41,521 nt of DNA from Nitriliruptorales bacterium (GTDB lineage: Bacteria > Actinomycetota > Nitriliruptoria > Euzebyales > Egibacteraceae): assembly GCA_009379795.1 (NCBI GenBank), contig WHTC01000005.1:1-41521 (forward strand), in the 5' to 3' direction. Shown one piece after another: positions 3,357 through 11,872 of this stretch. Every line of letters begins with the position of its first letter. The first letter of the stretch is position 1. The position numbers and the translations under genes are program-made. Under the pieces are notes generated by a model. It made no database searches. It had not been told where the DNA came from and was given only the letters and a program-made list of their open reading frames with translations.

Positions 3357-4370
3357 ATGGGTACCGACTCGCAGGATCGGTTCGGCCGGTCGCTCCGGGA
3401 TCTCCGCGTCTCGATCACGGATCGCTGCAATTTCCGCTGCCGCTACTGCATGCCGCGGGAGGTCTTCGGGCCGGACTTCACTTTCCTGGAGCGCTCGGAG
3501 CTGCTGAGTTTCGAGGAGATCGCGCGCGCCGTGCGCGCCTTCGTCCGCTGCGGCGTGCGCAAGGTGCGCCTCACCGGCGGTGAGCCGCTGCTGCGCCGCG
3601 ACGTCGAGGAACTCGTGGCCATGCTGGCGGCGATCGACGGCGTGGACGACCTGGCGATGACCACCAACGCGTCGCTGCTGGCGGCCAAGGCCGGGGCGCT
3701 GCGGCGCGCCGGGCTGGGGCGCGTGACGGTCAGCCTGGACTCGCTGGACGACGCCGTCTTCCGTGCGATGAGCGACGTGCACCTGCCCGTCGGCCGTGTG
3801 CTGGAAGGCATCGCGGCGGCGCGCGAGGCCGGCTTCGACGAGATCAAGCTCAATACGGTCGTCAAGCGCGGCGTGAACGAGGACGGCGTGCTGGATCTCG
3901 CCCGCTACGCGGGGGAGCACGGCTACATCATCCGCTTCATCGAGTACATGGACGTCGGCACGACCAACGGGTGGCGGTTGGACGACGTGGTGCCGGGGGA
4001 GGAGATCGTCCGGCGGATCGGGGAGCACCTGCCACTGGAGCCGATCCCGCCGAAGTACGCCGGGGAGGTGGCGACGCGCTATCGCTTCCGCGACGGCGCG
4101 GGTGAGATCGGCGTGATCACCTCAGTGACCCGGCCGTTCTGCTCCACCTGTACCCGGGCGCGCCTGTCCGCGATCGGTGAGATCTACACCTGTCTGTTCG
4201 CCGGCGGTGGGGGGGATCTGCGCGCCCTGCTGCGCGGTGGAGCGGACGACACCGAGTTGGAGGCGATGATCCGCGGCACGTGGGCGGCCCGCGACGACCG
4301 TTACTCCGAACTGCGGTCGCGCGCGACCCGCGACCTGCCCAAAGTCGAGATGAGCTACATCGGCGGCTGA
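3357..4370 (+). CDS. moaA: GTP 3',8-cyclase MoaA (radical SAM)
   Basis: SITDRCNFRCRYCMP cluster motif, LTGGEPLLR, FCSTCTRARLSAIGEIYTCLF second cluster, C-terminal GG. Confidence 0.96.
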   Translation: MGTDSQDRFGRSLRDLRVSITDRCNFRCRYCMPREVFGPDFTFLERSELLSFEEIARAVRAFVRCGVRKVRLTGGEPLLRRDVEELVAMLAAIDGVDDLAMTTNASLLAAKAGALRRAGLGRVTVSLDSLDDAVFRAMSDVHLPVGRVLEGIAAAREAGFDEIKLNTVVKRGVNEDGVLDLARYAGEHGYIIRFIEYMDVGTTNGWRLDDVVPGEEIVRRIGEHLPLEPIPPKYAGEVATRYRFRDGAGEIGVITSVTRPFCSTCTRARLSAIGEIYTCLFAGGGGDLRALLRGGADDTELEAMIRGTWAARDDRYSELRSRATRDLPKVEMSYIGG

Positions 4371-5332
4371 GCGGCGCGGCCTGGCGCATCCAGTTGCCTG
4401 GCGATGTCGGGCAGGTCTTCGGGGGCGGAGATCTCCCGTGCGGCGTGGGCCACGCTCAGCAGGGGTCTGGTCGGGAACCGCTGGGCGAGCTCAGCCATCC
4501 GCTCGCGTTGCTGGACCAGGCGCGCGCGCAGGAAGGCCCCTTCACCCTCGTCGGGCAGCACGCGGTTGACGATCAGCCCGCTGACGGTCAGGTCGTGGTC
4601 CTCCAGTGTCCGCAGGGCGCGGGCGGTTTCTTCGATCGCCAGTCGTTCGGGGATCAGCACCAGCCAGAAGGCCGCGTCGGCCAGCAGCCGCGCGCGGGTC
4701 GCGCGCAGCCGGTCGCGGCGTTCCCGCAGGCGGGCGACGACGGGGTCGGCGGTGGCCTCCTCCCGCCCGGCGAGGTTGCGCAGCATGCGGTCCATCCCGC
4801 GTACCCGCTCGCGTTGCCGCACCATGCCTTCGACCCAGGTGGTCAGCAGCCCGGGCAGCGCCAGCAGGCGCAACGTATGCCCGGTGGGTGCGGTGTCGAA
4901 GACGATCCGGTCCCACGCGTCGCCCGCGGTCTCCGCTCCCGATCCCCAGCCGATCAGGCCGGCGAAACGGTCCAGCATTGCCGACTCCACGGTGCCGGGG
5001 CTGTGGCGGGCGAGGTCCAGGTGACGGCGTAGGGTCGGCAGGACCTCCGGGCTGACGCTGTGCTCCGCGTCACGGGCGATGCGCCGCACATGGGCCTCGG
5101 CGTCGGCCTCGGCGTCGATCTCCAGGGCCCAGAGGCTCTCGCGTACCCTGCGCGGGGCGTTGCCCAGCGGCATGCCCAGCAGGTCGGCGGTGGAGTGTGC
5201 CGGGTCGGTGGACACCAGCAGTGTACGGAGCCCTTGGTCGGCGAACAGTCCAGCGCAGGCGGCGGCCATGGTGGTCTTGCCCACCCCGCCCTTGCCGCCG
5301 AACAGGATCAGGCGCCGGTCGCTCAGCAGCAC
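4355..5332 (-). CDS. ArsA/Get3-like P-loop ATPase
   Basis: LILFGGKGGVGKTTMAAACAG deviant Walker A, LLVSTDPAHSTADLLG, FDTAPTGHTLRLLALP. GTG start proposed at 5332, overlapping the upstream gene stop. Confidence 0.88.
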   Translation of the reverse strand: MLLSDRRLILFGGKGGVGKTTMAAACAGLFADQGLRTLLVSTDPAHSTADLLGMPLGNAPRRVRESLWALEIDAEADAEAHVRRIARDAEHSVSPEVLPTLRRHLDLARHSPGTVESAMLDRFAGLIGWGSGAETAGDAWDRIVFDTAPTGHTLRLLALPGLLTTWVEGMVRQRERVRGMDRMLRNLAGREEATADPVVARLRERRDRLRATRARLLADAAFWLVLIPERLAIEETARALRTLEDHDLTVSGLIVNRVLPDEGEGAFLRARLVQQRERMAELAQRFPTRPLLSVAHAAREISAPEDLPDIARQLDAPGRAAQPPM

Positions 5333-5589
5333 ACGCCAGGCTCCGGAAATTGTCGTAGCCCCATGCGCTGGTGCCACTGGTGGAACGATTCCAGCACCTC
5401 GGGGTACAACTCCAGCGTGTACCAGCTCGCGGGGCTCTCGACGCCCAGCGCTTCCAGGAACACCCATGCCAGGAAGGCGTCCTCCTGGCGGTTCGCCTCC
5501 CGCTGCAGACCGGCCTGCCACCTGCTGACGAAGAATTCGCGGTGCAACGCCTCCAGGCGCTGATAGATGGCCCGGGCGCGTTCCCTCAT
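5323..5589 (-). CDS. 88-aa protein ending in Cys-Cys-stop; resembles the 'cory-CC-star' type small proteins
   Basis: C-terminus ...FPEPGVCC*; overlaps the upstream ORF by ATGA and the downstream ArsA start; coding continuity in a tight minus-strand cluster. Confidence 0.75.
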   Translation of the reverse strand: MRERARAIYQRLEALHREFFVSRWQAGLQREANRQEDAFLAWVFLEALGVESPASWYTLELYPEVLESFHQWHQRMGLRQFPEPGVCC

Positions 5590-6035
5590 GCGGCGTCCCC
5601 AGGATCGTCGGCGGCTGCGACGGCGGCCGTGCTCGCGGCCAGTTCGGCCAGCACGGCGTCGACCGCCTGCTGTGGCTCGGGGACGTGACCGGCGAACAGC
5701 GTGCGGCCATCGACGATCACCGCGTTGTAGCTGACGCCGCGTCGCACCTCACGCCAGATCCGGCTGGTGTCGAACCCCCGGGCGCGCCCATCGCGCCAGA
5801 CGGCCGGCACCAGCCAGATCATGTTGCGCGGGTCGACCACGGTGATCTCCGCCGCGTCGCCCAGTTCTTCGCGCAGGGCCCGGTACACCGCGCCCATGCG
5901 CTCCATCTCGACGCGGTTGTGGCGGTACGTCTCCGCGTCGCCGACGTCGCAGTTGACGCCACCCAGGCGGCCGCAGCAACCCGAGCCCGAGGTCTGGGAG
6001 TCCCACTCCCGGACCAGCAGCACCCGGTGTCGCAT
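5586..6035 (-). CDS. Small protein with N-terminal SGSGCCGRLGGVNCD cysteine motif; possibly thioredoxin-fold
   Basis: 149-aa ORF, N-terminal CCG and downstream Cys; ATGA overlap with the next gene; directly downstream of cstA. Confidence 0.75.
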   Translation of the reverse strand: MRHRVLLVREWDSQTSGSGCCGRLGGVNCDVGDAETYRHNRVEMERMGAVYRALREELGDAAEITVVDPRNMIWLVPAVWRDGRARGFDTSRIWREVRRGVSYNAVIVDGRTLFAGHVPEPQQAVDAVLAELAASTAAVAAADDPGDAA

Positions 6036-6054
6036 GCGGCCTCCCTCGTGATCG

Positions 6055-7770
6055 CTACGGGGCGGCGGGCTCGTCCTGCGGCAGCTCCGCGGGCACGCGG
6101 CGCACCTTGCCGAAGACTATGACCGATTCGACGATCAGCCACACCGCCAGGGCCAGAATAACCAGGTCCAGCGGCAGGAGCAGCCAGTCGCCGGCCTGCC
6201 AGAAATCACGCAGGTTGAGGATCAGCGCCCAGGTGGTCATGAACAGCAGGAACACCAGCGGCACGAGTTGCGCCAGCGCGTTGCGCCCGCTCCGGGTCAC
6301 CCACACGGCGATCACCGCCAGGGCCAGGCCAGCCGTCAACTGGTTGGTGGTGCCGAACAGCGTCCACAGCCGGCCGAAGGCGAACGTCTCGCCTTCCGGG
6401 CCGGGAGCCAACGCCAGAGCGAGCGGCAGGATCACGGCCAGCAGCGTCGGCAGGGTCAGGCCGCGCTTGAACACGCTCGTGCCGGCGATCTCGCCGATCT
6501 CCTCGATGATGTAACGCTGCAGCCGGACGCCGGTGTCCATCGTGGTGGCCGCGAACGAGATCACCACGACCGCGGCGAAGATCGTCCCGAGCGCTATCGG
6601 CACGCCGAGATGGCTGGCGAACCCGGCGATGCCCTGGACGAAGTTGCCCACCGCACCCGTGGAGGCGGTGCCGAAGTCGGTGTACTGCTCACCCCAGTTG
6701 AGGCCGACTGCCGTGATCCCCGCGGTCGTCGCCAGGATCGCGCCCAGCGCCAGCGACCCCTCGCCGAGGGCGCCCAGGTAGCCGACGTGGCGGGCGTCAG
6801 TCTCCTTGTCGAGTTGCTTGGAGGTTGTGCCCGATGACACCAGGCTGTGGAACCCGGAGATCGCGCCGCAGGCGATGGTCACGAACAGGAACGGGAACCA
6901 GTTGGGGGAGCCCGCGGGGAGGTCGGTGTTCACCGCCGGGGCCACGATACGGTCCAGACCGACGGCCAGTCCGAGGAAGACGATGCCCAGCGCGATGAAC
7001 AACTGGTGCGAGTTGACGTAGTCGCGCGGCTGCAGCAGCACCCAGACCGGGATACGCGAGGAGATGAACGCGTAGGCGAACAGGATCACGATCCACAGCG
7101 TCCGCGGGCCCATGCCGAGTGCGGCGGCGACGCCATCGATCTCGATCGGGAAGGCGCTGCCGACCGGGATCATCACGTACAGCAGGGCCACTGCGGCGAG
7201 CGAGGGCACCAGCGCGCCGGTGCGCTTGCGGTAGATGTACTGGCCGAGCCCGATGGCCAGCGGGATCTCGAAGAAGATCGGGATGACTGCGCCGGGGTTG
7301 GCCACGAACAGGTTGGCGATCACGATGGCGAACACCGCGTTCACCAGGGTCAGCAGGAAGAAGATGATCAGCAGGAACAGCGTCCGCGAGCGGGCGTTGA
7401 TCACGGTGCTGGCCAGCGTGCCGATGTTCTGCGCCCGGTTGCGGACCGACACGATGATCGCACCGAAGTCGTGGACACCCGCCGCGAACACGGTTCCCAA
7501 CGTCACCCAGACCAACGCCGGCAGCCAGCCCCAGAACACGGCGATCGCCGGACCCACGATCGGTGCGGCGCCCGCCACCGACGTGAAGTGGTGCCCGAAC
7601 AGCACGTGCTTGTTGGTGGGCACGTAGTCCACGCCGTCGGCGAACTCGTGCGCCGGGGTCACAAAGTCGGGGTCGAGCCCGTAGACCCGGTTGGCAAGAT
7701 AGCTGGAGTAGTAGCGATAACCGAGTGCGAAGATTCCCATCACCGCGGCGGCGATGACGATGGCTGGCAT
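6055..7770 (-). CDS. cstA: Carbon starvation protein CstA family transporter
   Basis: Polytopic protein with YYSSYLANRVYGLD, FGHHFTSVAGAAPIVGPAIAVFWGWLPALVWV, FHSLVSSGTTSKQL; ATG at 7770 with GAGGGAG upstream. Confidence 0.93.
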   Translation of the reverse strand: MPAIVIAAAVMGIFALGYRYYSSYLANRVYGLDPDFVTPAHEFADGVDYVPTNKHVLFGHHFTSVAGAAPIVGPAIAVFWGWLPALVWVTLGTVFAAGVHDFGAIIVSVRNRAQNIGTLASTVINARSRTLFLLIIFFLLTLVNAVFAIVIANLFVANPGAVIPIFFEIPLAIGLGQYIYRKRTGALVPSLAAVALLYVMIPVGSAFPIEIDGVAAALGMGPRTLWIVILFAYAFISSRIPVWVLLQPRDYVNSHQLFIALGIVFLGLAVGLDRIVAPAVNTDLPAGSPNWFPFLFVTIACGAISGFHSLVSSGTTSKQLDKETDARHVGYLGALGEGSLALGAILATTAGITAVGLNWGEQYTDFGTASTGAVGNFVQGIAGFASHLGVPIALGTIFAAVVVISFAATTMDTGVRLQRYIIEEIGEIAGTSVFKRGLTLPTLLAVILPLALALAPGPEGETFAFGRLWTLFGTTNQLTAGLALAVIAVWVTRSGRNALAQLVPLVFLLFMTTWALILNLRDFWQAGDWLLLPLDLVILALAVWLIVESVIVFGKVRRVPAELPQDEPAAP

Positions 7771-8918: not shown

Positions 8919-9398
8919 ATGCCCAGTATTTCCGTCACCATCAACGGCACCACATACACGGACGACGTCGAACCCCGGCTCCTGTTCGTGCACTACCTGC
9001 GAGATCGACTGGGCCTGACCGGCACGAACATCGGGTGCGACACCTCCAACTGCGGGGCGTGCACGGTGATGGTGGACGGCTCCAGCGTGAAAAGCTGCAC
9101 CATGTTGGCCGTGCAGGCCGACGGCACGGAGGTGACAACCATCCAGGGGCTGGCCGACGGTGAGTGGCACCCGCTGCAGAAGGCGTTCAACACCGAACAC
9201 GCCCTGCAGTGCGGGTATTGCACGCCGGGGATGATCATGGCGTCCGTCGACCTGCTGGAGCGCAACCCGGATCCGAGCGAGGAGGAGGTTCGCGACGGCC
9301 TGGAAGGGAATCTCTGCCGCTGCACCGGTTATCAGAACATCGTCAAGGCTGTGCGTTCCGCCGCCGCCGAGATGCGCCAGCAGGAGGTGGGGGCATGA
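8919..9398 (+). CDS. coxS: Molybdenum hydroxylase small [2Fe-2S] subunit (CoxS-like)
   Basis: [16 protein letters not shown] and [10 protein letters not shown] ... [12 protein letters not shown], the two [2Fe-2S] motifs. Confidence 0.95.
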
Positions 9399-11872
9399 GC
9401 GAGATCGATGCTGACCTCGTCGGCCAGGAGATTCGCGAGCAAGAGGCGGTCAGCCCTCCCGACACCGACGCCCACGTCGGCCGGTCGCTGCTGCGCAAGG
9501 AGGACGCGCGGCTGGTCACCGGTCAGGCCAACTGGACCGACAACATCCAGTTGCCCGGGATGCTGCATATGGCTGTCCTGCGAAGTCCGATGGCCCACGC
9601 GCGCATCACCCACATCGACGTGTCGGGCGCGTTGGAGCAGCCCAACGTCATCGCCGCCTTCTCCGGCGCCGACCTGGCTGAGGACTGGGCGTCCGCCCTG
9701 CCCTGCGCCTGGCCGGTGACCGAGGACATCGTGATTCCCGACCACTGGCCGCTGGCCACCGACGAGGTGCGCTACGCCGGTGACGGCGTCGCGGTGGTGA
9801 TCGCACGGGATCGCTACTCGGCCGCGGACGCGCTGGAGACCATCGAGGTCGAGTACGACCCGTTGCCGGTCGTGACCGGCATGGAGGAGGCGCTGAAGGA
9901 TGAGGTGCTCGTCCACAGCGACAAGGGCACCAATAGGTCCTACCGCTTCGCCATGGAGAGCGGAGACCTCGACGGCGACTTCGCCGGCGAGGACCTGGTC
10001 GTCCTCAAGCGTCGCTTCATCCAGCAGCGGCTCATCCCGAACGCCATCGAGCCCCGCGCCGTGGTGGTCGCACCGATCGCCGCGGCCGGCGAGTACACGC
10101 TGTATTCGGCGACGCAGATCCCGCACATCCTGCGGGTGATGCTGTCGCTGGTCAACGGCATCCCCGAGCACAAGCTGCGTGTGGTCGCGCCTGATGTCGG
10201 GGGCGGCTTCGGCTCCAAGCTCAACGTGTACGCCGAGGAGGCGCTCGCGCTGGCGGTCGCCAAGCGGCTCGGCCGCCCGCTGAAGTGGACCGAGTCCCGC
10301 TCGGAGGGCTACCTGACGACGATCCACGGTCGGGACCAGATCCAGGATCTGGAGATCTCGGCCACGCGCGACGGCATCGTCAAGGGGCTCAAGGTCGATC
10401 TGAAGACCGACATGGGCGCCTACCTGCAGCTGGTGACGCCGGGCATCCCGCTCCTCGGGGCCCAGATGTTCAACGCGATCTACAAGTTCAGCTCCTACTC
10501 GTTCTCGTGCACCGGCGTGTTCACCAATAAGACGCCGACGGACGCGTATCGGGGCGCCGGGCGGCCCGAGGCCACCTTCGCCATCGAACGCCTGATGGAC
10601 GACCTGGCTGCCGAGCTGGGCATGGACCCCGTCGAACTGCGTCGCCGCAACTGGATCCAGCACGCCGAGTTTCCCTACGACACCATCTCGGGGCTGCAGT
10701 ACGACTCGGGCAACTACGAGGCGGCGACCGACCGGGCACTGGAGTTGTTCGACTACGACGGGCTGCGCGCCGAGCAGCGGCAGCGGCGCGAGTCGGGCGA
10801 TGCCGTGCAGCTCGGCATCGGCGTGTCCACCTTCACCGAGGCCTGCGGGTTGGCGCCCTCACGTGCGCTCGGCGAGGGCAACTACGGCGCCGGCGGCTGG
10901 GAGGCGGCGTCGATCCGGATGCTGCCCACCGGCGTGGCCGAGGTGGTGACCGGCAGCTCGGCCCATGGGCAGGGCCACGAGACCGCATGGAGCCAGATCG
11001 CGGCCGACGCACTCGGCGTGGGCTATGACGACATCGACGTGCTGCACGGTGACACCAAGGTGTCGCCGGTCGGCATGGACACCTACGGCTCGCGGTCTCT
11101 GGTGATCGGCGGCATCGCCGTTCAGAAGGCCGCTGAGCGCATCGTGGACAAGGCCCGCAAGATCGCGGCCCATATGCTGGAGGCCGACGAGGGCGACCTC
11201 GAGTTCGATCGCGGCAGCTTCCGGGTGAAGGGATCCCCGGAGGCGTCCACGACCATCCAGGACGTGGCGTTCGCCGCGTTCACCGCCCATGACCTGCCCG
11301 AGGGCGTGGAGCCGAACCTGTACGCGGACTGCACCTTCGATCCGATCAACCTGTCGTTCCCCCACGGCACACACCTGTGTGCGGTGGACATCGACACCGA
11401 GACGGGCTTCGCGAAGATCCGCAAGTACGTGTCCGTCGACGATGTCGGCAGCGTCGTCAACCCGCAGATCGTGGAGGGCCAGATTCACGGAGGGGTGGCC
11501 CAGGGCATCGGCCAAGCGTTGTACGAGGAGGCCATCTACGACGAGGACGGCAACCTCACCACCGGTACCCTGGTCGACTACCTGGTGCCCGCCGCGCCAG
11601 ACCTGCCCGCGTTCATCACCGACCGTACCGAGACGCCGGCGACCACCAACCCGCTGGGCGCCAAGGGCGTGGGCGAGGCTGGCACCATCGCCTCGACTCC
11701 GGCGGTGGTCAATGCCATCGTCGACGGACTGCGCCATCTCGGCGTGACCGATGTCCGCATGCCCTGCACACCCGAGCGCGTGTGGCGGGCGATCCACGAC
11801 ACCGGGACCGGGCAGACGGCCTCGGCCGCGGCCACCCGGACAGCGCAGCCTGGACAGGAGGTGTCCGCGTGA
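9395..11872 (+). CDS. coxL: Molybdenum hydroxylase large subunit (CoxL form II-like)
   Basis: [23 protein letters not shown] start, [21 protein letters not shown] active-site loop, [16 protein letters not shown] overlap with coxS. Confidence 0.95.

Follow-up and report, generated by a model that had tools for sequence, protein, structure and literature searches.

A CstA transporter operon with an ArsA-like ATPase, a Cys-Cys-tailed protein and an apparently undescribed CCG-motif protein that has a probable selenoprotein form

Introduction

Why would a secondary transporter be encoded together with an ArsA-like ATPase and two small proteins that each carry adjacent cysteines? The question is raised by a minus-strand operon in the first 41,521 nucleotides of contig WHTC01000005.1 from a Nitriliruptorales bacterium (GCA_009379795.1), a stretch that we call the window. 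Its four tightly packed genes, whose coordinates and described features we verified, encode in order the transporter CstA, a 149-residue protein with a Cys-Cys-Gly (CCG) motif (P149), an 88-residue protein ending in Cys-Cys, and a single-domain ATPase of the ArsA/Get3 family. The original prediction took these genes for a possible undescribed system in which the small proteins may supply dithiols for a client of the ATPase.

We find that the operon core is known. It was published in 2010 as CstA-CstX-ArsA (Castillo & Saier, PMC2963123), and the Cys-Cys-tailed protein falls in a family with a curated model, cory-CC-star (NF041419; hereafter CC-star), so that “undescribed” holds for P149 only. 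This fourth component has a probable selenoprotein form, and the apparent replacement of cysteine by selenocysteine (Sec) in one relative suggests a tie between the transporter and thiol or selenium chemistry.

Results

P149 (5586..6035, minus strand) starts at an ATG preceded by the ribosome site GAGGGAGG, and has cysteines at positions 20, 21 and 29 (SGSGCCGRLGGVNCD), the first two forming the CCG motif Cys20-Cys21-Gly22. The motif is invariant in a 42-row alignment of the family and present in 70 of 74 P149 segments, the others being one CCS and three truncated, frameshifted or mis-picked segments; REWDxQ and VDPRN are further conserved motifs. P149 had no match in Pfam or NCBIfam at E values up to 1, and a Pfam search with the 42 members returned nothing consistent: weak Thioredoxin_3 matches in six, and none to ArsD (PF06953). 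The family thus appears undescribed. AlphaFold2 predicts a thioredoxin-like fold (beta-alpha-beta-alpha-beta-beta-alpha; mean predicted local distance difference test score 88.8), and a Foldseek search of the PDB with this model placed ArsD first (3kgk; E 0.09, probability 0.80), followed by a SelW-like protein (2fa8; probability 0.91) and then thioredoxins including 1ilo. Identity with ArsD itself was considered and rejected, given the lack of a Pfam match and an hhalign probability of 22 over 29 columns; of the CC...C cluster of ArsD, the P149 alignment conserves only the Cys-Cys pair.

A homolog in Cytobacillus spongiae (NZ_CP089998) may hint at the chemistry of the motif. There the gene between cstA and the CC-star gene is annotated as a 95-residue hypothetical protein, and its frame extends upstream through a single TGA, reading MVEIMMIRSELEVGMG-TGA-CGGVSGDGF, to an ATG at position 3591 of the locus (L248) that follows a strong ribosome site, AGAGGGAGGG. 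The TGA aligns exactly, between conserved flanks, with the first cysteine of CCG, Cys20; in the window the Cys20-Cys21 codons are TGC TGC (5973..5978, minus strand). The read-through protein scored 59 bits against the P149 profile. After the TGA lies a hairpin of -13.4 kcal/mol with a z-score of -2.5, a candidate selenocysteine insertion sequence, and the same area of three CCG-type P149 genes gave z-scores of 0.2 to 0.5. The same replicon carries selA (550 bits, cut-off 268) and selD. Judged from sequence, 3591-3962 of the locus probably encodes a 123-residue selenoprotein of the P149 family, whose annotation wrongly starts at an internal ATG. The TGA may instead be a nonsense mutation, since this is a single case and a look at 18 kb on and around selA turned up no tRNA-Sec and no annotated selB. 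The apparent Sec form makes the predicted thiol- or selenium-linked function plausible.

The four genes belong together, as had been proposed. Among 60 relatives, CC-star was found in 14 genomes besides the window, with an adjoining ATPase in all 14, CstA in 13 (one at a contig end) and P149 in between in 10. At 11 further Actinomycetota loci, CstA and the ATPase were each present at all 11 and P149 at 8. The order CstA-(P149)-CC-star-ArsA is conserved in relatives and recurs in Proteobacteria and Bacillota records, and the NCBI annotation of Paracoccus aestuarii lists a carbon starvation protein A, cory-CC-star, ArsA family ATPase trio; the small proteins do, then, lie next to ArsA-like genes. 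A scan of named genomes for P149 yielded 49 loci, many with the four-gene order, in Rubrobacter, Nitriliruptorales, Pseudonocardiaceae, Salinisphaera, Gemmatimonadota, KSB1, Planctomycetales and others. Many hosts are, by name, halophiles or isolates from soda lakes or the sea (Salinisphaera, Saccharomonospora halophila, Tamaricihabitans halophyticus). No P149 was found in the viral contigs searched, nor in the plasmids searched with the window P149 as query.

P149 and CC-star also co-occur at the level of genomes. Of 397 Actinomycetota, 16 have both, 6 P149 only, 12 CC-star only and 363 neither (Fisher p 1.4e-16), and of 200 Gemmatimonadota, 8 have P149, 37 CC-star and 7 both (7/8 versus 30/192; Fisher p 3e-5), with the two genes adjacent in 6; these p-values ignore shared ancestry. 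P149 persists beside CstA on its own: in five of the six P149-only Actinomycetota CstA is its direct neighbor, and among 82 KSB1 genomes P149 occurs in 7, beside CstA in 4, with no CC-star alongside. In 17 genomes P149 lies away from CstA. Fourteen of these carry CstA-CC-star with an adjoining ATPase elsewhere; the other three are a metagenome-assembled genome without CstA, a planctomycete with CstA and no CC-star, and one genome where a further copy of P149 adjoins CstA. We therefore rejected the idea of a free-standing P149 unrelated to CstA, as solo copies are mostly found in genomes with the operon elsewhere.

Two Pseudonocardiaceae have a glutaredoxin-like gene, recognized by eye, next to an unlinked P149 (7622-7960 of L066 and 8435-8971 of L064), and in Ornithinicoccus halotolerans P149 is followed by an oxalate/formate antiporter-like transporter, likewise recognized by eye (8536-10080 of L062). 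Genes of the CO/xanthine dehydrogenase type lie near P149 in the window (8919-11872) and at three distant loci, about 1-7 kb off.

The CC-star gene (5323..5589, minus strand) shares an ATGA with the P149 stop at 5586-5589, as described. Its 88-residue product scored 102 bits against NF041419 (cut-off 80) and ends in GVCC, residues 87 and 88 being its sole cysteines. The terminal pair is invariant in 29 of 29 aligned CC-star proteins and in 30 of 30 from Gemmatimonadota; this pair and CCG are thus both conserved. We predict one long helix, two short helices and a free tail, with a short hydrophobic stretch (predicted template modelling score 0.44); Foldseek found no match to this model in the PDB. 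The final TGC TGC TGA (5323..5331) overlaps the start codon of the ATPase gene, whose GTG at 5332 lies within the Val-Cys-Cys-stop stretch. We rejected selenocysteine at this TGA: relatives end in TAA or TAG, and Cytobacillus in TAA. It is a true stop, because homologs have TAG and TAA among their stop codons there.

The ATPase (4355..5332, minus strand; 325 residues) is a member of the Get3/TRC40/ArsA superfamily (TIGR00345, 226 bits against a cut-off of 135) with the deviant Walker A motif GGKGGVGKTT. It is not a classical arsenite-pump ATPase, a class with two ATPase domains and three arsenite-binding cysteines: it scored 126 bits against TIGR04291 (cut-off 650), and its one cysteine (Cys26) confirms the lack of the ArsA cysteine triad. 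It also lacks CxxC, and its closest PDB entries are ArsA1 (5zme) and the archaeal 3zq6 and 3ug6.

We conclude that CC-star and the ATPase behave as one module and P149 as another, both tied to CstA, because CC-star and ArsA vanish together in several lineages in which P149 stays beside CstA. The terminal Cys-Cys is missing from distant CstX proteins whose genes accompany those of ArsA and CstA; at four distant Actinomycetota loci, CstA stands with paired CC-less CstX paralogs and two adjoining ArsA-like ATPases.

CstA (6055..7770, minus strand; ATG start, 571 residues; PF02554, E 3.8e-135) belongs to a short clade without profile positions ~353-405. Its sole cysteine, Cys301, lies in TIACGAISGFHSLVSSGTT, and this column is invariant in the CstA alignment, in 64 of 64 CC-type and 10 of 10 YbdD-type proteins. 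A sequence search for a solved CstA structure found none. In the CstA tree, YbdD-type CstA is split from the window clade with support of 99/95, and well-supported branches require at least five changes for the P149-only state. The substrate is probably pyruvate, another small carboxylate or a peptide, by comparison with E. coli. We considered the invariant cysteine (TIACGAISGFH) as a candidate target of the CC motifs; sequence data do not support this, because the cysteine is kept without an adjacent CC partner and also with CC-less CstX.

The operon is bounded by a pyridoxamine-oxidase-like gene on one side and by moaA (3357..4370, plus strand; TIGR02666) on the other. The convergent moaA, whose 3' end overlaps the stop of the ATPase gene by 16 bp, is a conserved neighbor in relatives and lies outside the system assigned here. 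Across the window and six other loci, moaA adjoins the cluster and also CstA-P149 pairs that have no CC-star or ATPase, which suggests that the CC-star and ATPase genes were lost from conserved surroundings. Profile scans with Pfam and NCBIfam found no arsR or other ars determinant in the window operon.

Discussion

We suggest, with about even confidence, that the operon encodes a CstA importer with two accessory modules. CstA would import a small organic solute. In the first module, gained and lost as a unit, CC-star would be a helical adaptor through which ATP hydrolysis by the ArsA/Get3-like ATPase is coupled to CstA. In the second, P149 would be a thioredoxin-fold thiol oxidoreductase with a vicinal Cys-Cys, or Sec-Cys in at least one bacterium, held in a flexible loop after strand 1, the place of the active cysteine in thioredoxins, SelW-like proteins and ArsD. 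It would act on CstA or on the CC-tailed partner, so that redox state sets transporter activity. An obligate relay from P149 to CC-star is contradicted by each occurring without the other.

Several observations weigh against this arrangement. Seven Actinomycetota genomes have CC-star with its terminal Cys-Cys and no P149, several lineages have P149 and no CC-star, and part of the co-occurrence of the two reflects shared ancestry. The invariant CstA cysteine shows no co-variation with CC-bearing partners. The Cys-Cys pair of P149 lies in a low-confidence part of the AlphaFold2 model, and the fold matches are weak, the best E value being 0.09 and none falling below 0.001.

The same genes might be explained in other ways. 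In a primary pump resembling ArsAB, ATP hydrolysis by ArsA would drive CstA, with CC-star as linker and P149 as a minor auxiliary; CC-star and ArsA are indeed found together and with CstA, and their three trees suggest co-evolution (PMC2963123), but E. coli CstA functions without ArsA (PMC5847655, PMC7730263), as presumably does CstA in the CstA-P149 lineages, and neither the invariant CC motifs nor the Sec form is accounted for. We regard such a pump as unlikely. More doubtful still is a Get3-like role, in which the ATPase would serve as a chaperone for the delivery or assembly of the hydrophobic helix of CC-star, or of CstA, at the membrane, and the cysteines would be assembly or redox switches. 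Archaeal Get3-type ATPases are among its closest solved relatives, CC-star has its long helix and short hydrophobic stretch, and CstX has been described as having a single transmembrane segment (PMC2963123). A clear tail anchor is missing from the C-terminus of CC-star, however, which ends in a polar tail with Cys-Cys, and the ATPase, with its one cysteine, lacks the CxxC zinc site.

Least probable, in our judgement, is the model of the original prediction, in which the ATPase would act on a client (metal(loid), selenium or redox) held by the two small proteins. Both do carry vicinal cysteines, and ArsD, the top-ranked fold match of P149, has a Cys-Cys after strand 1 and a second one at its terminus. 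Yet the profile match between P149 and ArsD is weak, and ATPase and dithiol are separable in both directions: CC-less CstX occurs with ArsA, the Cys-Cys of YbdD occurs without it, and P149 keeps its place next to CstA in lineages that lack both CC-star and ArsA. The dithiols are therefore unlikely to be the client site of the ATPase. The model is further disfavored by the absence of ars genes from the operon, and the lack of the cysteine triad in single-domain ArsA homologs had already been noted in 2010 (PMC2963123).

Our importer with two modules sets the long-proposed ATPase module of CstA apart from a thiol module, and P149 adds a probable selenoprotein family overlooked by annotation. It also gives a second CstA clade partners with invariant vicinal cysteines, and with Sec variants seemingly on both sides one chemistry may be shared. 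A tentative, rather doubtful extension is that P149 is a new family of thiol/selenol oxidoreductases (CCG/UCG), that CstA clades each gained a vicinal Cys-Cys or Cys-Sec partner (YbdD/KCU-star, CC-star, P149) making transport redox-gated or thiol-coupled, and that ArsA was added here.

Comparison with known systems

The operon has what defines CstA-CstX-ArsA: CstA, a ~90-residue CstX and a single-domain ATPase of ~325-330 residues without the cysteine triad, in one operon that has no arsR (PMC2963123). Castillo & Saier reported 26 CstA-ArsA associations, 24 of them with CstX, and proposed that CstX couples ArsA to CstA (PMC2963123); from size, position and neighbors we infer that CstX is the CC-star protein. 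The available part of their description includes no P149-like protein and no mention of a Cys-Cys terminus, and the sole further component it names is CstY, an archaeal protein of ~210 residues with a single transmembrane segment (PMC2963123).

In the E. coli CstA-YbdD/BtsT systems of pyruvate uptake, as here, the CstA transporter comes before a small protein (of PF04328 in E. coli) whose last residues are Cys-Cys, and YbdD is required with CstA for pyruvate uptake (PMC5847655). YbdD ends in GARCC and scored 70 bits against the KCU-star selenoprotein model NF033934, below its cut-off of 85; of the PF04328 proteins adjoining CstA in Actinomycetota, 9 of 10 end in Cys-Cys. In contrast to the window operon, the E. 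coli system belongs to the separate CstA clade and lacks both ArsA and P149. We rejected homology of CC-star and YbdD, and keep the likeness as an analogy: CC-star has no match to PF04328 (YbdD/YjiX) in a Pfam search, and hhalign aligned 16 C-terminal columns only (probability 2.9). The tails may be convergent, because homology is undetectable.

The ArsD-ArsA pair likewise joins a thioredoxin-fold protein with Cys-Cys after strand 1 to an ArsA-family ATPase. P149 differs in lacking the CCSTGVCG motif, the ATPase here is single-domain, and the constant partner of P149 is CstA, with ArsA present or absent. SelW-like/Rdx proteins and MTH895, thioredoxin-like proteins with a CxxC or CxxU motif, carry their cysteine or selenocysteine in the loop that follows strand 1 (2fa8, 1ilo), as P149 is predicted to do; P149 is distinguished from them by its vicinal Cys-Cys or Sec-Cys, by REWDxQ and VDPRN, and by having no profile match to them above cut-off.

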